From NCBI GenBank assembly GCA_029243485.1, contig JAQWRY010000028.1:62001-126000 (forward strand): 64,000 bases of DNA. Direction: 5' to 3'. Made by a program: the position numbers and the translations under genes. This DNA is from Candidatus Binatia bacterium. Lineage in GTDB: Bacteria > Desulfobacterota > Binatia > UBA12015. Positions 48,752-61,924 of the stretch are shown piece after piece (the first letter of the stretch is position 1; each line of letters starts with the position of its first letter). The notes below the pieces were generated by a model. That model saw only the letters and a list, made by a program, of their open reading frames with translations. It was not told the origin of the DNA and made no database searches.

Positions 48752-48890
48752 CTTCGGCGTACTATGGCCGAATGCCCCGTTCGGGTCGAACCGGGAAGGG
48801 GTGTCCGAAACCGCGAAGTCGTGCCTCGAACTGCTGTTCGCCCGAGCCTAAGGAATCCAGTACAGTGCCAATCGCGAGAGACCGATTCGT

Positions 48891-50252
48891 ATGTCCGAAG
48901 CATCAGCCAGGCTGTTCCTCACGACCCCCGAAGGGGATACACGTATCGTGCCTCTGGGAGACCTCACACGAATCGGTCGTGCGGCGAACAGCGATCTCGT
49001 CATCGAAGATTCGAGCGTCTCGCGCCGCCACGCACTGATCCAGCTTCAGGACGACGGGGGCCACATCCTCACCGATCTCGGAAGCGCCAATGGCACCACG
49101 GTCAACGACGAGCTGATCAGCCTCCCAGTGGTCCTTCGTGACGGCGACAGTGTCGGCATCGCGGGCTACCAGATCGTCTTCTCCGGGGAACGACCCGGGG
49201 ATGCGGACGGGCAGTCCGGCGACACTCTGTTCAACACCGAAGACTCGACGGTCAACGAAGAGCGCGGTCACCGGCGACACCATCGGGTTCAGATCGTCGG
49301 CGGCGGTCCCGGGATGCTCGAGGTCCTCGGGCAGGTTCGGCAGGCGGCGTCGTCCAGCATCCCGGTGCTCATCACCGGCGAGACCGGGACGGGCAAGGAA
49401 CTGGTTGCGCGCTCCATCCACCAGGGCGGCTCGCGGGCCTCGCAGGTGTTCGTTCCGATCAACTGTTCGGCCTTGCCCGAGGCCCTGCTCGAGAGTGAGC
49501 TGTTCGGTCACCGGCGGGGGGCCTTTACCGGCGCTCAGCAGGACCGCGCGGGCCTCTTTGAAGCCGCAAAAGGCGGAACGGTCTTCCTCGACGAGGTCGG
49601 GGAACTACCCATCCAAATGCAGCCGAAGCTTCTGCGATTCCTGCAGGACGGCGAGGTTCGTCGTGTGGGCGACGTCGAGCCACGGCACGTCGATGTGCGC
49701 GTGATTTCCGCGACGAACCGTGACCTCAAGAGTGAGATCGAGCGCGAGGCCTTCCGCGAGGATCTCTACTTCCGCCTGAGCACGTTCACGATCGAGTTGC
49801 CGCCGTTGCGCGCTCGCCCCGAAGACATCGCTCTCCTGGCCGAGCGGCTCCTGCGCACGCAGGCGGAATTGCAGAAGAAGAGGGTGCGGGGCATCGAGCC
49901 CGCCGCCCTGGAGGCCCTCGGTCGGTATGATTGGCCCGGGAACGTGCGCGAACTCGAGAACGAGCTCGCCCGCGCTGTGGCGATTCTTCACGAGGGTGAT
50001 CGGATCACGCTGTCGACGCTCTCTCCGCGGGTCTCGGGGCCACAGCCCGACGCGGCGAGCACGGGCGACGCGACGCCACCTCCTGCCACCGATCACCCAA
50101 CCGAGCTACGCGGTGCGATGACGGATTTTGAGCGCACGCACATTGCCGAGGTGCTGGAGCAGAACGGGGGCAACGTTTCGAAGGCCGCCCAAGCTCTGGG
50201 CCTCTCCCGTGGAGGACTCCACAAGAAGCTGAAGGAGCTGGGGCTGCGGTAG
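48891..50252 (+). CDS. FHA-domain sigma54-dependent transcriptional activator
   Basis: 453 residues. An FHA phosphothreonine-binding domain (residues about 8-100) has the signature IGRAANSDLVIEDSSVSRRH and GSANGTTVN. A sigma54 AAA+ domain follows with Walker A GETGTGKE, the sigma54 contact loop GAFTGA and Walker B GGTVFLDEVGEL. The C-terminal Fis-type HTH reads NVSKAAQALGLSRGGLHKKL. There is no receiver domain, so activity is probably controlled through the FHA domain binding a phosphorylated Thr on a partner, the obvious candidate being the kinase encoded 78 bp downstream. No -24/-12 promoter was found in the window, so the target genes are unknown. Confidence 0.95.
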   Translation: MSEASARLFLTTPEGDTRIVPLGDLTRIGRAANSDLVIEDSSVSRRHALIQLQDDGGHILTDLGSANGTTVNDELISLPVVLRDGDSVGIAGYQIVFSGERPGDADGQSGDTLFNTEDSTVNEERGHRRHHRVQIVGGGPGMLEVLGQVRQAASSSIPVLITGETGTGKELVARSIHQGGSRASQVFVPINCSALPEALLESELFGHRRGAFTGAQQDRAGLFEAAKGGTVFLDEVGELPIQMQPKLLRFLQDGEVRRVGDVEPRHVDVRVISATNRDLKSEIEREAFREDLYFRLSTFTIELPPLRARPEDIALLAERLLRTQAELQKKRVRGIEPAALEALGRYDWPGNVRELENELARAVAILHEGDRITLSTLSPRVSGPQPDAASTGDATPPPATDHPTELRGAMTDFERTHIAEVLEQNGGNVSKAAQALGLSRGGLHKKLKELGLR

Positions 50253-52999: not shown

Positions 53000-54031
53000 T
53001 CAGCGCGCGAGGCGCGCGATCAGTTCCATGGCCTCGGGCTGTGCGGCGTGGACCGTCAGGCCGGTCGCGCCGGAGTCCTGCCATGCGCGGAACTTGGCCG
53101 TGATGCGTGTCTCGTCGCCGATCATCGCGCCCTCGTCTAGGTACTCGTCGGGAACCGCGTCGACGGCCTCCTGCCGTTTCCCGGCGAGGAAGAGCTCCTG
53201 AATTCGGGTCGCGGCTTCGGCGAAGCCACGGCGTTCCATCTGGTCTTTGTGGAAATTCTTCTTCTCGTGGCCCATTCCGCCGACGTAGAGCGCCGTGACC
53301 GGCTTCATTGCGGCGAGTGCGCCTTTGACGTCGTCGGTGATGGAGATCTGGGATTGGGCCTGGATCTCGAAGTTCGCGAACGACTTTCCGTTGCCCGCGC
53401 GACGGAATCCCTCTTCCAGCCACGGCCGGTAGACCTTCATCATGCCCGGCACGAAGCCCATGGGCAGCCAGCCATCGGCGATCTCGGCGGTGAGTTTCAC
53501 CATCGCTTCGTTGCCGGTGGCGAGCCAGATGGGGAGGTCCGGGTTCATGTGCAGGATCGACTTCAGCGGTTTCCCGATGCCGAGAGCGCCGTCCCCTTTG
53601 AACGGAAGCTGAAACTCCCGTCCGTCGTGCTCGACCGGTCCCTCGCGGCGGAACACCTTGCGCATGATCTCGACGTAGTCGCGCATCCGGTAGTACGGCT
53701 TACCCCACGGCTGACCGTACCAACCCTCGACGATCTGGGGTCCCGACACCCCGAGGCCGGCGATCGCGCGGCCGCGTCCGGCCAACTCGTCGATCGTTCC
53801 CATCTGCATCGCAGTCATCGCCGGCGTGCGTCCGGCGAGTTGGGCGATGCCGGTTCCGAGCCGGAGCTTCTCCGTCTTGCCGGCGAGGAAGGCGAGGGGA
53901 GTGATCGCATCGGAGCCGTACGCCTCGGCGCTCCATACCGAATCGAACCCGAGACGTTCGGCGTGTTGGATCCTCTCGACGGGGATGTCGAAGCGCGCGC
54001 CGGAGTAGTTGAGGAAGAAGCCGAGTTTCAT
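53000..54031 (-). CDS. LLM class F420-dependent oxidoreductase
   Basis: 343 residues, luciferase-like TIM barrel. The N-terminal MKLGFFLNYSGARFDIPVERI, the segment IAQLAGRTPAMTAMQM and GRAIAGLGVSGPQIVEGWYG are typical of F420-dependent members of the LLM superfamily (Mer/Fgd-like), rather than FMN monooxygenases. It transfers hydride from reduced F420 to an unknown substrate in the cytoplasm. With the DUF385 protein at 930 it supports F420 use in this organism. Upstream of it on the same strand is the membrane isomerase-like gene, 22 bp away. Confidence 0.9.
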   Translation of the reverse strand: MKLGFFLNYSGARFDIPVERIQHAERLGFDSVWSAEAYGSDAITPLAFLAGKTEKLRLGTGIAQLAGRTPAMTAMQMGTIDELAGRGRAIAGLGVSGPQIVEGWYGQPWGKPYYRMRDYVEIMRKVFRREGPVEHDGREFQLPFKGDGALGIGKPLKSILHMNPDLPIWLATGNEAMVKLTAEIADGWLPMGFVPGMMKVYRPWLEEGFRRAGNGKSFANFEIQAQSQISITDDVKGALAAMKPVTALYVGGMGHEKKNFHKDQMERRGFAEAATRIQELFLAGKRQEAVDAVPDEYLDEGAMIGDETRITAKFRAWQDSGATGLTVHAAQPEAMELIARLAR

Positions 54032-55510: not shown

Positions 55511-55826
55511 ATGATGGAACAGCGCGCGTTTCTTCGGATGGGGCTGGGCGGCGCGGTGCAGTCACGGTTCTCTCCGCGGGCCCCCGTGGCTGGCTTGCAT
55601 TGCGAACGCCGCCGCAGCAGCGGGCGAAGGTCGCTTTGGGCCGGTCTTGGTGCCCGACGAGAACGGCATCCGGTTGCCGCGAGGCTGCAAGTCGCGGTTG
55701 TTGATTCGTTCCCCGGTGCTCAGCTCAGTGGCGTCGACAACATTGATGGGAGCCGCAGCGGTGATCTGATCATCGCGCAAGACGGCGGGAACATGGAACT
55801 CGTGGTGATTACGCCGCTCCTCATCG
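55511..55826 (+). pseudogene. Remnant of a PhoX-like (DUF839) exported protein
   Basis: An ATG at 55514 gives MEQRAFLRMGLGGA, a leader-like start that then loses frame. About 60 bp later another frame reads GPPWLACIANAAAA, then FGPVLVPDENGIRLPRGCKS, the start of the DUF839/PhoX mature domain (compare GPLQ..DANGLRLP.GF.SR), closing at TGA near 55770. A third frame picks up GDLIIAQDGGNMELVVITP, a later part of PhoX (GDL.ICEDGGG). Hundreds of residues between are absent. Two frame changes and a deletion mean no functional product. Its end meets the stop of the selenoprotein gene on the other strand. Confidence 0.6.
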
Positions 55827-56912
55827 GAAGAGCTTCTCTAAGGTCTCCGTTTTGTGGTCTCCGCTCGTGGGACGGAGGTCGGTGTTCGATGCCCCGGCGT
55901 ACGACTCGAGGCCGAGTGCCTCGCGGAACTCTCCGGACGCGTCGCGTGTGCCGTCATCGAGGGGGATGCCGCTGGCATCCGCGGTGCGAACCAGGCCGTT
56001 GAAGATGCCGACGATCCCTGCGGCCTCGACGAACCCGGCGGGGCCGACGGCTTCGATCAGTGCGTCTCGTGCCCCGCCGGCGTCTTCCCCCTTCGAGACG
56101 GCTTCACCGAAGCGAACGATCTCCTCGCCGTGCGGTAGGCCTCCACTCCCACCGCGGCCCACGGTCGCGTCCAGCGTAGCGTTCTCACCGATTGCCTCGC
56201 TGCTCGCACGGAGCAGCGTCACATGGGAGGTCGTTCAATAGAAGCACTCGTTCACGGAGGAGACGCGTGCGGCCAGGAGCTCGACCTGCGGGCGGCTGAG
56301 GGGGCCGTCTTCCCACACCATCTCGAAGAAGCTCTGTGGGCCGCCGTACATCGTCATGACGATCCCGAAGAACATCGCGTTTTGCGCGGGCACGAGACTG
56401 AGCGCGCGCCCGACGTTTGGTCCTTGCCACGGGTCCTGCAGCGGCACGTACGCGCCCGCGTCGACGGTCTGTTCGTTCTTTACGCCGTCGGGTTCGCCGG
56501 CCTGCGGTTCCGGGAGGGGCTCGCAGGGGACGCCTAGTGCCTCGGCAAACGTGTCGATCGCGCAGGTCGTGGCGACCAGCGCGGCGATCTCGACGTACGC
56601 CGCATCGCCGAGTTCCGAAATCTTTGGCTCGGCCCACGCTCGATCGATCTTGTGTGCGTCGGCGGCAATCGTCCGCGCGACCTCGACCGCTGCCGCTGGC
56701 AGGAGATCGCCGGCGTCGGGGAGGCCGTCGCGCAGCCACGGTGGATTTCTACGCTGACGGCGGGCCTCGCGCGCCTGCGTCGCGAGCGCGACGCGTTGGG
56801 CGCCGGTCCACGCGCAGCCTGCCGCGGCAATCATGTCCCACGCAGCACGCTGCGCCGCAATGATGTCTGCCCGCACCGGATGCGCGAGACCGCGGTAAGC
56901 GAACCGCTCCAC
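55821..56912 (-). CDS. AhpD-like (carboxymuconolactone decarboxylase fold) protein, candidate selenoprotein with CxxU motif
   Basis: Translated through one in-frame TGA, the gene gives 363 residues from the GTG at 56912. The TGA (56237-56235) is codon 226. Before it the frame reads VSSVNECFY and after it TTSHVTLLRASSEAIG, so with selenocysteine the motif is C-F-Y-U-T-T-S-H. This is the CxxCxxxH redox motif of AhpD peroxidases with Sec at the second Cys. The downstream part keeps family sequence (VRFGEAVSKGEDAGG, then IVGIFNGLVRTADASGIPLD), and no other stop interrupts it. A SECIS-like hairpin lies 16 nt after the TGA. Family role: thiol-dependent peroxidase or reductase, cytoplasmic. If the TGA were simply a mutation, a 225-residue fragment without the second redox residue would result. 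Lies 60 bp after the lipocalin-like gene. Confidence 0.78.
56198..56218 (-). promoter_or_regulatory. SECIS-like hairpin downstream of the in-frame TGA
   Basis: On the coding strand CGCTGCTC and GAGCAGCG form a perfect 8-bp stem around the 5-nt loop CGTGC. The stem starts 16 nt and the loop 24 nt after the TGA, within the 16-37 nt window known for bacterial SECIS elements, and the second loop base is G as required by SelB binding. Confidence 0.7.
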
Positions 56913-56971
56913 GCCGCGTAGGCTATACCGAACCGGGCTACGAAGCGAGGCAGGAAAGAATCCTGGGGGCC

Positions 56972-57955
56972 TTACGCATCTCCCTCGAGAGTGCGCAGGA
57001 ACTCGCTCAGGCCGTAGCCGACCTGGCCATCGAGCGTCCATTCCGTCATGCCTTCGCCGATCTGGGTGGTCATGCCGCCCCGTCGGTTCCGGAGCGGGAT
57101 GAATCCCAGCACCTTGCCGTCGATGTGCAGCTCTTCGCCGCTTCCCGTTTTGACGTCGGCGCGCACCGTGCGGTGGAACGGGGTGCCTTCCTCGTACTCG
57201 GCGGTGACGTCCGCGTAGACGAGCGGTTCCAGCTTGTCGCCTCGGATCATGACGCCGCCGCGGCGGATGTTGTCCTCATCTCTCTTGATGACGGAGACCA
57301 TGAGACCGAGATCCGGCCCGAAGTTCATGGTGAGCCACTCGTACGCCGCGATCGACTGCCAGTAGCGCGGGCCCCAGGAGTGATCGCGGAGGCCATGGCC
57401 GGACAGGTGGATGGTCTCGCCGTCGACTTTGAGCGTTCCGGAGACGGCCATGTGTTGCTCGTAGTGCGCCTTGCCGAACTGTTCCTCCGCCGGTCGGTCG
57501 GCCTCCTTCTTGTCCTTCGAGCCGCCGTACATCGCGCCGACCGCGTCGTGGACGAGGTCGAGCTCGATCTTCTTCGGGGTGTTTTGGGTGAAGGCGGCCT
57601 TGGGGTCGGTGAGGACGCGCGGTTCCTTCAGGTCCAGAACCGAACCGCGGTAGGTCGTGCGGAGCCTTTGTGCCGGCTCGATCACTTCGAACTTGAGGCC
57701 GCCGGCATCAAATGCGTCGTTGTTGGGGATCTCGGCGCGTTTGAACATGAACATGGCCGTGCCGTCGGGGCGGTACAGCGCCACCGTCATCTCCGCGCGT
57801 CCCTCGTTGGCGCGGTTGCCCAGGCGGACGAATCCGCCCATGCGCTTCGTCGGGTCGAAGAAGTTGAAGTACATCGACTCGTTGAAGTTGGTTTCGGCCC
57901 CGAGCGGGTGTGTGTAGTCGTCTTCGGGGACGAGGTTTCCGATGATCTTCGCCAT
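56972..57955 (-). CDS. Lipocalin-like (AttH/CrtC-type, DUF7064/7065-like) protein
   Basis: 327 residues from the ATG at 57955, with CGGAGAAG upstream. The central motif SGHGLRDHSWGPRYW (around residue 185) is the RDHSWG signature of the AttH/CrtC-like lipocalin domains found in carotenoid 1,2-hydratase relatives and many uncharacterised environmental proteins. GNRANEGRAEMTVALYRPDG at the front forms the first beta half. No signal peptide. Function unknown; binding or modification of a hydrophobic compound is plausible. Same strand as the candidate selenoprotein and immediately upstream of it, so probably one transcript. Confidence 0.75.
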   Translation of the reverse strand: MAKIIGNLVPEDDYTHPLGAETNFNESMYFNFFDPTKRMGGFVRLGNRANEGRAEMTVALYRPDGTAMFMFKRAEIPNNDAFDAGGLKFEVIEPAQRLRTTYRGSVLDLKEPRVLTDPKAAFTQNTPKKIELDLVHDAVGAMYGGSKDKKEADRPAEEQFGKAHYEQHMAVSGTLKVDGETIHLSGHGLRDHSWGPRYWQSIAAYEWLTMNFGPDLGLMVSVIKRDEDNIRRGGVMIRGDKLEPLVYADVTAEYEEGTPFHRTVRADVKTGSGEELHIDGKVLGFIPLRNRRGGMTTQIGEGMTEWTLDGQVGYGLSEFLRTLEGDA

Positions 57956-58075
57956 GGTGCTTCTCCGTTGGATGAGGGCGGGGAAGGCCGCAGACCCACT
58001 GTCGGGGTGGGCGGACCTGGTTGTCAAATTCGGGGCTCGTATTGACGCGCCGGGAAGCGTTTCGGAGAGTGACGC

Positions 58076-59242
58076 ATGGTGGTTCGGGGCGTATTGATCT
58101 TGGCGGTGGGGGTTCTCCTCGTCGGCTGCGTCCGTGCGCCGGACTCGTTGACCGTCGCCATGGCGCTCCTCCCGAGTGAGCTCGCGCCGTACCGGGCCAT
58201 CCTCGCGGACTTTGAGAAGGCGACCGGGACGCGGGTCGTTCTCGTCCCGCAGCAGTATCCGGACATCCGGCGGGCGCTGGCCGCGGAGGCCGCGGCCGGG
58301 GAGGGGACTCTCGATCTAGTCGAGCTCGATGTCTACTCGCTCGCACCGGCCGCGAGCCAGGTGCGGCTGCTCGCCATGGACGGACTCGGCACGGAAGTGG
58401 ACGCCCTCGAGCCTCAGACCGTGCGCGCCGGGACGATCGATGGACTGCGCTTCCTGCCACACCGCGTCTCCTGGCAGGCGCTCGTCTACGATCACTCCGT
58501 GCTCGGCGCGCCCCCCGCGACGTGGGAAGAACTCCTGGCGGTGGCGCGGGCGCATCCCGGGAAGATCGGGTTGAAGGGCGCCCTCTACGAGGGCCTTACG
58601 TGCGACGTCCTGCCGTTCGTCTGGGCCGCGGGGGGTTCCGGCGCCGATCTCGGCGACGCCGGCGCACAGAAGGCGTTCGAGCTCTTCTCGGCGCTCGCTC
58701 CGTACCTCGATCCGCGCAGCGCGGTGTTCAAGGAGGCGACGATCGCCGAGGCTATGGCGCGGGGGGAACTCGTGCTGCACCTGAATTGGCCGTTCGTGAT
58801 GTCGCTGTACGCGAGTGAAGACCTCGCACCAGAGCGGTTTCGTGCGGCACCGCTGCCGCTGGGGCCGGACGGACGTGCCACCGTTCTCGGTGGCGGCTAT
58901 ATCGCGATTCCGGTCAACGCACCGCACGCGGACGAGGCCCTCGCGCTGGCTCGGTTCCTCCTCGCGCAAAAAACCCAGGAACGCTTCGCGCGAGAGTTGG
59001 GGTGGTTCTCGGCCCGGCGCGACATTCCATTCGGGGGTGGCTCGCCGCTTCTTGCCGGCTACGCCGACATGCGTTCCGAGGTTCGGCCTCGGCCTGAGCG
59101 CGCGGATTACCCGGAGATCAGTCGTCAGTGGCAACGCGCGTTTCGACGCGTTGCGTTCGAGGGTGTCGCACCGGAGCGCGCGCTGCGCGAAGGGCAGGCG
59201 GCCCTCGAAGCGAATGCCGACGCGCGGGGGAGTGCCGAATGA
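58076..59242 (+). CDS. ABC importer substrate-binding lipoprotein (sugar-type)
   Basis: 388 residues with a lipoprotein signal (VLILAVGVLLVGC, Cys at about residue 18). Two-lobed periplasmic binding protein of the extracellular solute-binding family 1: FEKATGTRVVLVPQQYPDIR, TLDLVELDVYSL, HRVSWQALVYDHSVLG and LGGGYIAIPVNAPH are in the expected places. Delivers a sugar, polyol or similar compound to the permeases encoded next. First gene of a five-gene operon; its stop overlaps the next start by four bases (ATGA). The ligand cannot be told from sequence. Confidence 0.92.
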   Translation: MVVRGVLILAVGVLLVGCVRAPDSLTVAMALLPSELAPYRAILADFEKATGTRVVLVPQQYPDIRRALAAEAAAGEGTLDLVELDVYSLAPAASQVRLLAMDGLGTEVDALEPQTVRAGTIDGLRFLPHRVSWQALVYDHSVLGAPPATWEELLAVARAHPGKIGLKGALYEGLTCDVLPFVWAAGGSGADLGDAGAQKAFELFSALAPYLDPRSAVFKEATIAEAMARGELVLHLNWPFVMSLYASEDLAPERFRAAPLPLGPDGRATVLGGGYIAIPVNAPHADEALALARFLLAQKTQERFARELGWFSARRDIPFGGGSPLLAGYADMRSEVRPRPERADYPEISRQWQRAFRRVAFEGVAPERALREGQAALEANADARGSAE

Positions 59243-60060
59243 GAGCATGGCTTCTCGCCGTCCCGCTGCTGGTCTATCTGGCCGTCTTCCTGGTCTATCC
59301 GATGGGTGAGGCGGTTCGCTTGGCCTTCACGGATTCGGTCTCGGGGAGCTTTCCGAGCCTCGCGAGCTTCCGCATCCTTGCAGACGACCGGCTCTTTCGG
59401 GACGCGCTCGTGGTCAATCTTCTCTTGCCGATGGTCGCGGTCGCGCTCGAGGTGGTCGCGGGCCTCGGCCTCGCGCTGCTTCTTGCGGAGCGTCTGCCGG
59501 CGCGCCGACTTCTCCGGGCCGCCGTGCTCCTTCCCTTTGCTCTGCCGGAGATCGTCTTCCTGACGATCTTGCGGAACGTTCTGACCCCGCGGGGCTATCT
59601 GAACGGGGCCTTCGCGATGGTGGGCGTCGCGCCTGTCGATCTCTTGTCACCCGGAACCGCGTCGAGTTTCGTTTCGGTTGCCTTCGTCGATGCCTGGAGG
59701 ACCACGCCGGTCGTTTTTCTGATCTTGCTCGGCGCGCTCGCTGCGCTTCCTGCGGAGATCGGCCAGGCGGCCCGCGTCGACGGCGCATCGAGCTGGAGGC
59801 GGTTCTGGCACGTGACCCTTCCGCTTCTGCGACCGGCCCTCGTCGCCGCCATTCTGCTCCGGGGACTCGATGCGCTCCGGCTCTTCGCGGCACCGCTCGT
59901 CCTGACCGGGGTCGAAGGGGTGCCGGTGCTTTCGACCTACGCCTATCACCAATGGTCGGATTACGGGGACGACGGGGCGGCCGCGGCGGCGTCGGTCGTG
60001 CTGGCGCTCCTGTGTCTTCTCGCGAGCGCGCCGCTTCTGCGGCGGCGGGTGACGGCGTGA
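59239..60060 (+). CDS. ABC importer permease 1 (MalF/UgpA-like)
   Basis: 273 residues, six helices. The EAA loop reads EIGQAARVDGASSWRRFWHV (around residue 170), which couples to the ATPase. FLVYPMGEAVRLAFTDS at the front is typical of MalF/UgpA-type permeases. Starts four bases inside the binding-protein gene and its TGA is overlapped by the next start (GTGA). Confidence 0.93.
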   Translation: MRAWLLAVPLLVYLAVFLVYPMGEAVRLAFTDSVSGSFPSLASFRILADDRLFRDALVVNLLLPMVAVALEVVAGLGLALLLAERLPARRLLRAAVLLPFALPEIVFLTILRNVLTPRGYLNGAFAMVGVAPVDLLSPGTASSFVSVAFVDAWRTTPVVFLILLGALAALPAEIGQAARVDGASSWRRFWHVTLPLLRPALVAAILLRGLDALRLFAAPLVLTGVEGVPVLSTYAYHQWSDYGDDGAAAAASVVLALLCLLASAPLLRRRVTA

Positions 60061-60860
60061 AGAGACAGCTCCTCGTCGGGGTCGCGTTCGCGATCGCCAC
60101 GGTGAACCTCTTGCCGCTGTGGCTCGTCGTGAAGCAGGCCGTCACGCCGGAGGGGGAGAGCTTCGCGTGGCCGCCGACCTGGGTGCCGCACGAGTTCACG
60201 CTCGCAAACTTCGGCGCAGCGGCAGATGCTGTGCCGCTGGGGCAGGGGCTCGCTCTGAGCCTCTCGGTCGCTCTCGCCACCGTCGTCTCGGCGCTCGCGA
60301 TCGCGTTGCCGGCCGCCTGGCTCGCGGCTCGCCGCGAGAAGGCCGGCACGAGACTCGATGGCGTGATGGTGGTCGCCCGCCTGTTCCCGACGATCGCCAT
60401 CGCGGTGCCCTTGGCCGTGATCTTCGTGCGGTTCGGGCTCTACAACGACCCGAATGGCGTCGGGCTGTGGTTCGCCCACACGTTGCTGGGCCTTCCGTTC
60501 GCGTTCCTCATTCTCCGTGCGGCGTTTCGCGGTGTGCCGACTGAGTTGGAAGACGCGGCCCTCCTCGACGGAGCCAGCGCGTGGAGCTCTTTCCTTCGGG
60601 TCAGTCTGCCGCTCGTCCGCCCGTCTCTTGGGGCGGCGGCGATGTTGGTTTTCCTCGTCTCGTGGGACGAGTTCGCGTACGCGCTTCTCCTGCAGGTGAC
60701 CAATCGGACGTTGCCTCCGTTGCTCTACTACCTGTCGGCCTTCGGCTATCCGGGGCTGTCCAGCGCGGTTGCGGTTCTGATGTTGCTGCCGGCCGTGGTG
60801 ATCCTGCTCTTGCTCGAGCCAGCTCTCCGTTCGGGAGTGTTGGCAGGAAGTGGTCGCTGA
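60057..60860 (+). CDS. ABC importer permease 2 (MalG/UgpE-like)
   Basis: 267 residues from a GTG at 60057, six helices. EAA loop ELEDAALLDGASAWSSFLRV (around residue 162) with the expected A-L-D-G-A core. LARLFPTIAI-like and SWDEFAYALLLQ segments are MalG/UgpE signatures. Overlaps neighbours at both ends (GTGA upstream, TGATG downstream), which implies coupled translation and fixed stoichiometry. Confidence 0.93.
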   Translation: MKRQLLVGVAFAIATVNLLPLWLVVKQAVTPEGESFAWPPTWVPHEFTLANFGAAADAVPLGQGLALSLSVALATVVSALAIALPAAWLAARREKAGTRLDGVMVVARLFPTIAIAVPLAVIFVRFGLYNDPNGVGLWFAHTLLGLPFAFLILRAAFRGVPTELEDAALLDGASAWSSFLRVSLPLVRPSLGAAAMLVFLVSWDEFAYALLLQVTNRTLPPLLYYLSAFGYPGLSSAVAVLMLLPAVVILLLLEPALRSGVLAGSGR

Positions 60861-61924
60861 TGGCACGCGCGCGAATCGAGGGTCTCACGAAACGCTACGG
60901 TGATGCCGTCGTTTTGGACGACTTCTCGCTCGACATCGCAGACGGCGAACTCGTCGTGGTCGTGGGGCCGTCGGGTTGCGGGAAATCCACGCTACTACGT
61001 CTCCTCGCCGGCCTCGATGAGCAGAGTGCCGGAGAGATCCATCTCGGCGATCGGCGGGTCGATGGGCTCGCGCCACAGCACCGCGACGTGGCCATGGTCT
61101 TCCAGAACTACGCGCTCTATCCGCACATGACTGTTCGCGGGAACGTGGAGTTTCCCCTGCGGATGCGGGGAGTGGGGAAGCGGGAGCGTCGGGTGCGCGC
61201 CGAGGAGGTCGCCGAACTCCTCGAGATCGGCGAATTCCTGGACCGAAGGCCCGCAGCGTTGTCCGGGGGCCAGCGGCAGCGGGTCGCGCTGGCGCGCGCG
61301 CTGGTCCGCGAGCCGGACCTTTTTCTGCTCGACGAGCCGCTGTCGAATCTCGACGCGCGCTTGCGCACAGACGTTCGCCAGCACATCCGGGATCTCCAGC
61401 GTCGGCTCGGCGTTACCACTCTCTACGTGACGCACGACCAGACCGAGGCGATGACGCTGGGGCATCGGGTCGTGGTCCTCGATCACGGCCGGACGCAGAT
61501 GGTGGCGCCTCCGCTAGTCGCGTACGAGCGGCCCGAGAACGCGTTCGTCGCGGGATTTCTCGGGGCGCCGGCCATGAACCTCGTTCCCGGTCGGGTCGAT
61601 GGCGGCACTCTTCGGTTGGGCGAGCAGAGCCTCGAGTTGCCGGCGGCGCTTGCCGAGGTACTCGCGACCGGCGTTGTCACCGTGGGCGTTCGACCGGAGG
61701 CGTTCGGGCCGAGCGTCGACGGCAGCCCCGACGTGCTCGCGCAGCCCAAGCCCGCGACGGTCGAGGCCCTCGGGAGTGAGACGCTTCTCGCGGCTACGCT
61801 CGCGGACCGGGACATCGCGATCCGTCTCCCCGGGAATGTGGAGACGGCCGCGGAGTCGTTTTCAGCTCCCATCGACGCGCTGCACTTCTTCTCTCCGGTG
61901 GATGGACGGCGGCTCGCGCCGTGA
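60860..61924 (+). CDS. ABC importer ATPase (MalK/UgpC-like)
   Basis: 354 residues. Walker A GPSGCGKST (residues about 36-44), Q-loop MVFQNYALYPHM, signature LSGGQRQRVALARAL, Walker B LFLLDEPLSNLD, and the switch His in VTHDQTEAMTL. The C-terminal 120 residues form the regulatory TOBE domain (VTVGVRPEAFGPS) of MalK/UgpC-type importers. Energises the two permeases encoded upstream. Its start shares the A of the previous stop (TGATG), and its TGA overlaps the start of the MATE gene. Confidence 0.95.
   Translation: MARARIEGLTKRYGDAVVLDDFSLDIADGELVVVVGPSGCGKSTLLRLLAGLDEQSAGEIHLGDRRVDGLAPQHRDVAMVFQNYALYPHMTVRGNVEFPLRMRGVGKRERRVRAEEVAELLEIGEFLDRRPAALSGGQRQRVALARALVREPDLFLLDEPLSNLDARLRTDVRQHIRDLQRRLGVTTLYVTHDQTEAMTLGHRVVVLDHGRTQMVAPPLVAYERPENAFVAGFLGAPAMNLVPGRVDGGTLRLGEQSLELPAALAEVLATGVVTVGVRPEAFGPSVDGSPDVLAQPKPATVEALGSETLLAATLADRDIAIRLPGNVETAAESFSAPIDALHFFSPVDGRRLAP

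Follow-up and report, generated by a model that had tools for sequence, protein, structure and literature searches.

An AhpD-related gene split at an in-frame TGA in a Candidatus Binatia genome is very probably an intact selenoprotein gene

The stretch of DNA analysed here (the window, 64 kb) carries on its minus strand a gene that can be read through from 56912 to 55821 and contains a single internal TGA, codon 226 (56237-56235). Between this TGA and the stop codon, itself a TGA (55823-55821, codon 364), lie 137 codons, and the read-through product has 363 aa. Residues around the internal TGA are N-E-C-F-Y-U-T-T-S-H, where U denotes the proposed selenocysteine (Sec) and CFYUT corresponds to codons 223-227. 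An earlier reading made from the letters alone (the sequence-only reading), which gave no strand, had claimed an in-frame TGA at the second cysteine of a CxxCxxxH motif, with the same uninterrupted length behind it and no other stop, and had expected a standard caller to split the gene in two. Translation of the frame confirms the first claim, and the standard ORF list indeed breaks the gene into pieces of 268 aa (56235-57041) and 133 aa (55821-56222). GTG at 56912 is the probable start; it is weakly supported by one relative (L029), whose alignment row opens with methionine opposite this GTG. An alternative start, ATG 57041, lies within the upstream gene, which codes for a DUF7065/DUF7064 protein (56972-58027, same strand) and is located 59 nt before the GTG.

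The read-through protein matches the NCBIfam equivalog NF041238 ("alkylhydroperoxidase-related (seleno)protein", AhpD_rel_CFYUT) with 303.8 bits against a cut-off of 175, along profile positions 1-356 of 357, and the Pfam CMD model PF02627 is passed around the CFYUT motif. The homologue alignment called for by the sequence-only reading shows that family homology persists through the TGA from one end of the protein to the other. As a family member the window copy is divergent: it reaches 295.2 bits in a search in which the best of its class has 476.5. NF041238 is entered as a CxxU family in a table of a 2026 review (PMC13188914), and, going by the entries in the two papers, it is the protein that appears as "hypothetical protein 1" in the Sargasso Sea selenoproteome of 2005 (PMC1088965, PMC13188914). 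Passages of the 2005 paper that deal with this protein describe a CXXU motif and a SECIS-like stem-loop and offer no functional evidence (PMC1088965). This kind of selenoprotein is therefore already known. Of the two-part, 363-residue selenoprotein that had been proposed, the selenoprotein nature is supported, but novelty does not extend to the two-part build of roughly 360 residues: the NF041238 model spans 357 positions and describes the protein of 2005. The window protein resembles members of the family in matching along nearly the whole length, in having CxxU at the equivalent position and in a SECIS-like stem-loop downstream; it differs in its divergence and in the absence of an N-terminal CxxC, which is seen in the N-terminal domain of 96 of the 129 aligned members.

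Codon 226 was compared across the family, as had likewise been suggested. The pool held 136 family stretches, among them that of the window and some duplicates. Of these, 133 extend as far as the site and all 133 have TGA; L050, L051 and L061 end before it and were excluded. Within the class, 28 of 148 genomes contain a family match above cut-off; 37 of the 40 matches have TGA and the other three stop short of the site. In an even draw from the phylum, five of 395 genomes match at E 1e-30; three of the five, own genome included, belong to the same class. An alignment-based scan of named genomes with two patterns, one of them written for Cys codons, confirmed 297 relatives. The best 80 of these 297 were compared, and their titles name Myxococcota, Delta-, Alpha- and Gammaproteobacteria, Chloroflexota/Dehalococcoidia and others. 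Some of these loci probably belong to genomes already present in the pool; L111 and L028, for example, sit on equally long contigs. A single-sequence pattern scan of genome contigs produced 18 pattern matches, none of which was confirmed, and no family match was detected in plasmids at E 0.001. Cys forms were not seen in the 133 stretches, for which the pattern covers C or U only and the best 80 of 297 relatives were taken. Since a table of PMC1088965 moreover apparently lists 7 and 5 Cys homologues, we do not claim that the family uses Sec exclusively.

The TGA might have arisen by plain nonsense mutation in a gene for a CxxC protein, which would make the locus a pseudogene, and one sister copy in the same genome does contain two further in-frame stops, both TAG. 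However, all 133 stretches, whose records bear the names of several phyla, carry this TGA, and selection is similar before and after it. Between the window gene and G101, a relative of the same family with 57% identity, dN and dS are 0.43 and 1.38 before the TGA and 0.37 and 1.37 after it; beyond the first 20 codons after the TGA they are 0.43 and 1.72. Similar values on either side speak against downstream decay, and a pseudogene is, in our opinion, highly improbable. Still more improbable is a sequencing or assembly error in a Cys codon: the assembly consists of 88 contigs, but TGA also stands at this position in other species, which were assembled separately, together with a conserved core of the hairpin described below.

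This hairpin, which is predicted by folding and is read as a SECIS element, begins 16 nt past the TGA. It comprises 21 nt, CGCTGCTC-CGTGC-GAGCAGCG (56218-56198, minus strand), with an 8-bp stem and the loop CGUGC, whose second base is G. A bacterial SECIS is defined in PMC1088965 as a stem-loop directly after UGA that has a small apical loop with guanosine, and the hairpin at codon 226 agrees with this definition in its location directly downstream and in its small loop with G. Its stability relative to shuffled sequences is modest (z -2.0 over 45 nt, -1.4 over 81 nt); for the 45 nt from stop codon 364 there is no gain over shuffles (z 0.36). When both strands and all frames are counted, 9 of the window's 1285 TGAs, codon 226 among them, are accompanied by a comparable hairpin with at least 8 Watson-Crick pairs, G in the first two loop bases and a start 11-25 nt after TGA. 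No Rfam family matches at gathering score anywhere in the window, and a lax Rfam scan of 56080-56300 returned only two weak matches, both to other families. Taken singly, the hairpin is not exceptional and constitutes weak evidence; it is the family comparison that decides.

Within the first 15 codons that follow the TGA, the window gene and G101 share the third position in 80%; the corresponding values are 42% before the TGA and 41% for the whole run of 136 codons behind it. In the family as a whole, 132 hairpins were collapsed to 126 distinct sequences. Among these, the inner five stem pairs are paired in 96-100% and the outer three in 44-61%, and every one of the 126 has G as its second loop base. 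The 8-bp stem is thus best described as a family core of five pairs with a lineage extension. The sequence-only reading had claimed a perfect 8-bp SECIS hairpin; the hairpin is there and its core is conserved, but its length of 8 bp is partly a trait of the lineage. Fourteen codons after the TGA were examined in the same 126 sequences. Third-position entropy amounts to 0.00-0.55 bits in codons 7-11, where the hairpin core lies (the zero value of codon 7 being partly due to Met, a single-codon residue), and to 0.99-1.96 bits in codons 1-6 and 12-14. In an alignment of 40 sequences (39 distinct), 88.8% of stem cells are paired and 16 cells are changed on both sides; none of 500 shuffles, which ignore the relatedness of the sequences, was as high on either measure. 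Two of five pairing measures were matched by shuffles, namely double-change pairs (86/500) and further pair types (97/500). Three stem pairs are invariant across this alignment, and with the stem slid by 1-3 columns at most 52.2% of cells are paired.

Presence of selA, selB, selC and selD in the genome had been predicted, and all four were found above cut-offs. The tRNA-Sec model, which is not fully specific as its second match above cut-off (contig C47) is a tRNA-Leu, scores 75.6 bits on contig C86, above the curated cut-off, and ARAGORN calls tRNA-SeC with anticodon tca there. The same contig carries selA and selB in adjacent positions and contig C47 carries selD, each above its curated cut-off. 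Low-level read-through of UGA is a general phenomenon, and it counts in favour of an explanation without Sec, in which some other amino acid is placed at the TGA or each half works as a protein of its own. Against this stand the complete Sec system, the nearly frozen hairpin core and loop G, and the position of the TGA exactly where AhpD has its redox Cys; moreover, the downstream half alone would be devoid of Cys223. We regard such an explanation as very unlikely.

Considering the frame, the NF041238 match, the sel genes, TGA in every stretch that reaches the site, selection on both sides of it and the frozen hairpin core, we conclude that 55821-56912 (minus strand) is a genuine, intact selenoprotein gene of NF041238, with a probability of roughly 0.94. 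A selenoprotein gene split by ORF calling is thereby confirmed in a genome with Sec machinery. Upon arrival of the ribosome at UGA 226, SelB carrying Sec-tRNA would bind the hairpin just downstream and Sec would be inserted at 226, an event to which the frame, the conservation of the hairpin and the complete sel set point.

At the putative active site, Glu211 (56280-56282), Cys223 (56244-56246), the Sec226 position and His230 (56223-56225), all on the minus strand, show no variation among the 129 aligned members. Together with Tyr225 they display the same spacing as the five-residue proton relay of PA0269, reported to be formed by Glu36, Cys48, Tyr50, Cys51 and His55 (PMC3141380). By this analogy, Glu211, spaced as Glu36, and His230 may act in proton relay, and Cys223 may be the partner thiol of the CxxU pair. 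The relay Glu-(12)-Cys-x-Tyr-Cys/Sec-xxx-His and the C-terminal fold are common to the window protein and to AhpD-like proteins (PA0269, M. tuberculosis AhpD, 6k40, 2prr), except that M. tuberculosis AhpD has His where the relay Tyr stands in the others. Unlike these AhpD-like, peroxidase-related proteins, the window protein has Sec for the second Cys and an extra degenerate N-terminal domain.

An AlphaFold model constructed from 37 sequences (pLDDT 91.3, pTM 0.91) predicts two AhpD-like domains in one chain. The C-terminal catalytic domain (residues 151-336; 55905-56462, minus strand) includes the PF02627 region, and helices 207-220 and 224-240, which bear CxxUxxxH, are intact in the model. 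Single-domain AhpD/CMD-like PDB chains align with Z of 8.0-12.8, nearly all of them on this half. The N-terminal half (residues 1-150; 56463-56912, minus strand; pLDDT 91.1) has no CxxC and looks like a second, degenerate AhpD-like domain. When folded alone, its best 15 rows are all AhpD/CMD-like with Z of 6.6-9.2, which is below the caution level for helical folds yet set apart from lower rows, the next of which has 3.7. When Foldseek candidates are aligned structurally with the whole model, the top place goes to human Sestrin2 (5t0n_A), which has 239 residues aligned within model 1-317 at Z 17.6 and rmsd 3.5, middling Z being common among helical folds. In the ranking by Foldseek itself, AhpD-like chains lead with E no better than 0.017 and Sestrin2 occupies only rank 13 (E 0.83). 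The likeness to sestrin therefore rests on the second aligner and on the helical fold.

Two AhpD-like domains per chain are also found in Sestrins and in bacterial fused AhpD dimers (PMC11429811, PMC4674687). The latter were described in 2024 as sestrin-like chains in which the C-terminal domain is catalytic and the N-terminal one has no cysteine (PMC11429811), so that the two-domain architecture, too, is already known. The text of that article does not mention Sec for these dimers, and the word "selenoprotein" occurs 0 times in it, whereas the window protein would use Sec. Human Sestrin2 has Cys125 in its N-terminal domain, whereas the catalytic site of the window protein is in the C-terminal domain; in sestrin, an electronegative hinge (DDYDY) replaces the helix-turn-helix of the C domain, whereas DDYDY is absent from the window protein. 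On these two grounds, we rejected the window protein as a sestrin. With 37 members searched up to E 10, a setting in which HMMER filters drop weak matches, the Pfam sestrin model is absent among the matched families, and a literature search on sestrin, selenoprotein and AhpD returned titles concerning other subjects.

The N-terminal CxxC is missing from the window gene, G101, L074, a neighbouring group and the listed Chloroflexota copies. In a midpoint-rooted FastTree phylogram, the window gene, L074 and G101 group together with support of 0.998, and the CxxC-less members do not form one clade. Having no CxxC in the N-terminal domain, the window subclade would mirror, with the domains swapped, the state of sestrins, in which one domain is catalytic and the other is not. 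We tentatively suggest that NF041238 might be a Sec-using branch of fused AhpD pseudo-dimers, possible ancestors of sestrins, and that its members could be sestrin-shaped two-domain organic-hydroperoxide reductases with Sec in the redox pair.

As for chemistry, analogy with AhpD-like proteins makes peroxidase activity, i.e. hydroperoxide reduction, the best and a fairly probable guess for the window protein. The Cys223/Sec226 pair, activated through His230 and Glu211, would reduce a hydroperoxide, probably an organic one; a selenosulfide intermediate would form and would be reopened by a reductant. The same selenoprotein might instead function as a thiol-disulfide reductase, a Bmp8-type reductive dehalogenase-like enzyme or a sestrin-like sensor, given that Bmp8 debrominase aligns with the predicted model at Z 12.5 and Sestrin2 at Z 17.6. 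The relay residues nevertheless match those of PA0269, a peroxidase, albeit one of weak activity (PMC3141380), and the missing DDYDY speaks against a sensor of the sestrin type; another function is thus rather unlikely. The family was described two decades ago without function, and the relay match together with the sestrin-like model leads to the hypothesis of a Sec peroxidase of sestrin architecture. Our additions are modest: an exact relay match combined with a two-domain model, and the absent N-terminal CxxC in the window subclade.

Further, we examined the neighbourhood of the gene. The upstream DUF7065/DUF7064 gene reaches 63.2 bits with the Rv3169 family, below the cut-off of 150, and has no match in those neighbourhoods of relatives that were searched. 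A conserved operon is not apparent, as no neighbour of the window gene recurs in ten neighbourhoods compared, except a sigma-54-type regulator ORF (48852-50249), whose matches of 39% lie near L065 and L069, both of them more distant copies. By raw counts without background control in 81 neighbourhoods, the commonest neighbour cluster occurs in 20 and the next in 17, and the window's neighbours belong to clusters of 3 and 2 loci; with counts of this kind we make no operon claim. Inspected by eye in the flanks of L074-L153, the commonest cluster (20/81) looks enoyl-CoA hydratase-like and the second (17/81) CoA-transferase-like. Elsewhere in the window, 53000-54031 (minus strand) encodes an LLM-class F420-dependent oxidoreductase of the Rv3520c type (378.2 bits, cut-off 335), and 58076-61924 (plus strand) a probable ABC importer composed of solute-binding protein, permease and ATPase with MalK-type OB domain.

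Two more family matches above cut-off are located in the same genome, on contigs C13 and C10. The first (L017, C13:3102-4145) is the sister copy with two in-frame TAGs besides the Sec TGA; it shares 80% identity with a same-genus copy without TAGs. Pyrrolysine was rejected as an explanation of these TAGs, PylS reaching 25.8 bits where 178.15 are required and matches turning up in 13 of 14 control genomes too, and the copy is therefore read as probably decaying. The second (L019, C10:79056-79775) matches only profile positions 100-355, its N-terminal part being missing or out of frame. Among the best 80 of 297 relatives, 13 loci have two family genes on the same strand (L075, L077, L083, L085, L086, L087, L097, L103, L113, L131, L138, L141 and L152); the two genes are adjacent in the ten of these 13 loci that are titled Chloroflexota/Chloroflexi/Dehalococcoidia. 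In L074, a second family copy is found on the opposite strand.
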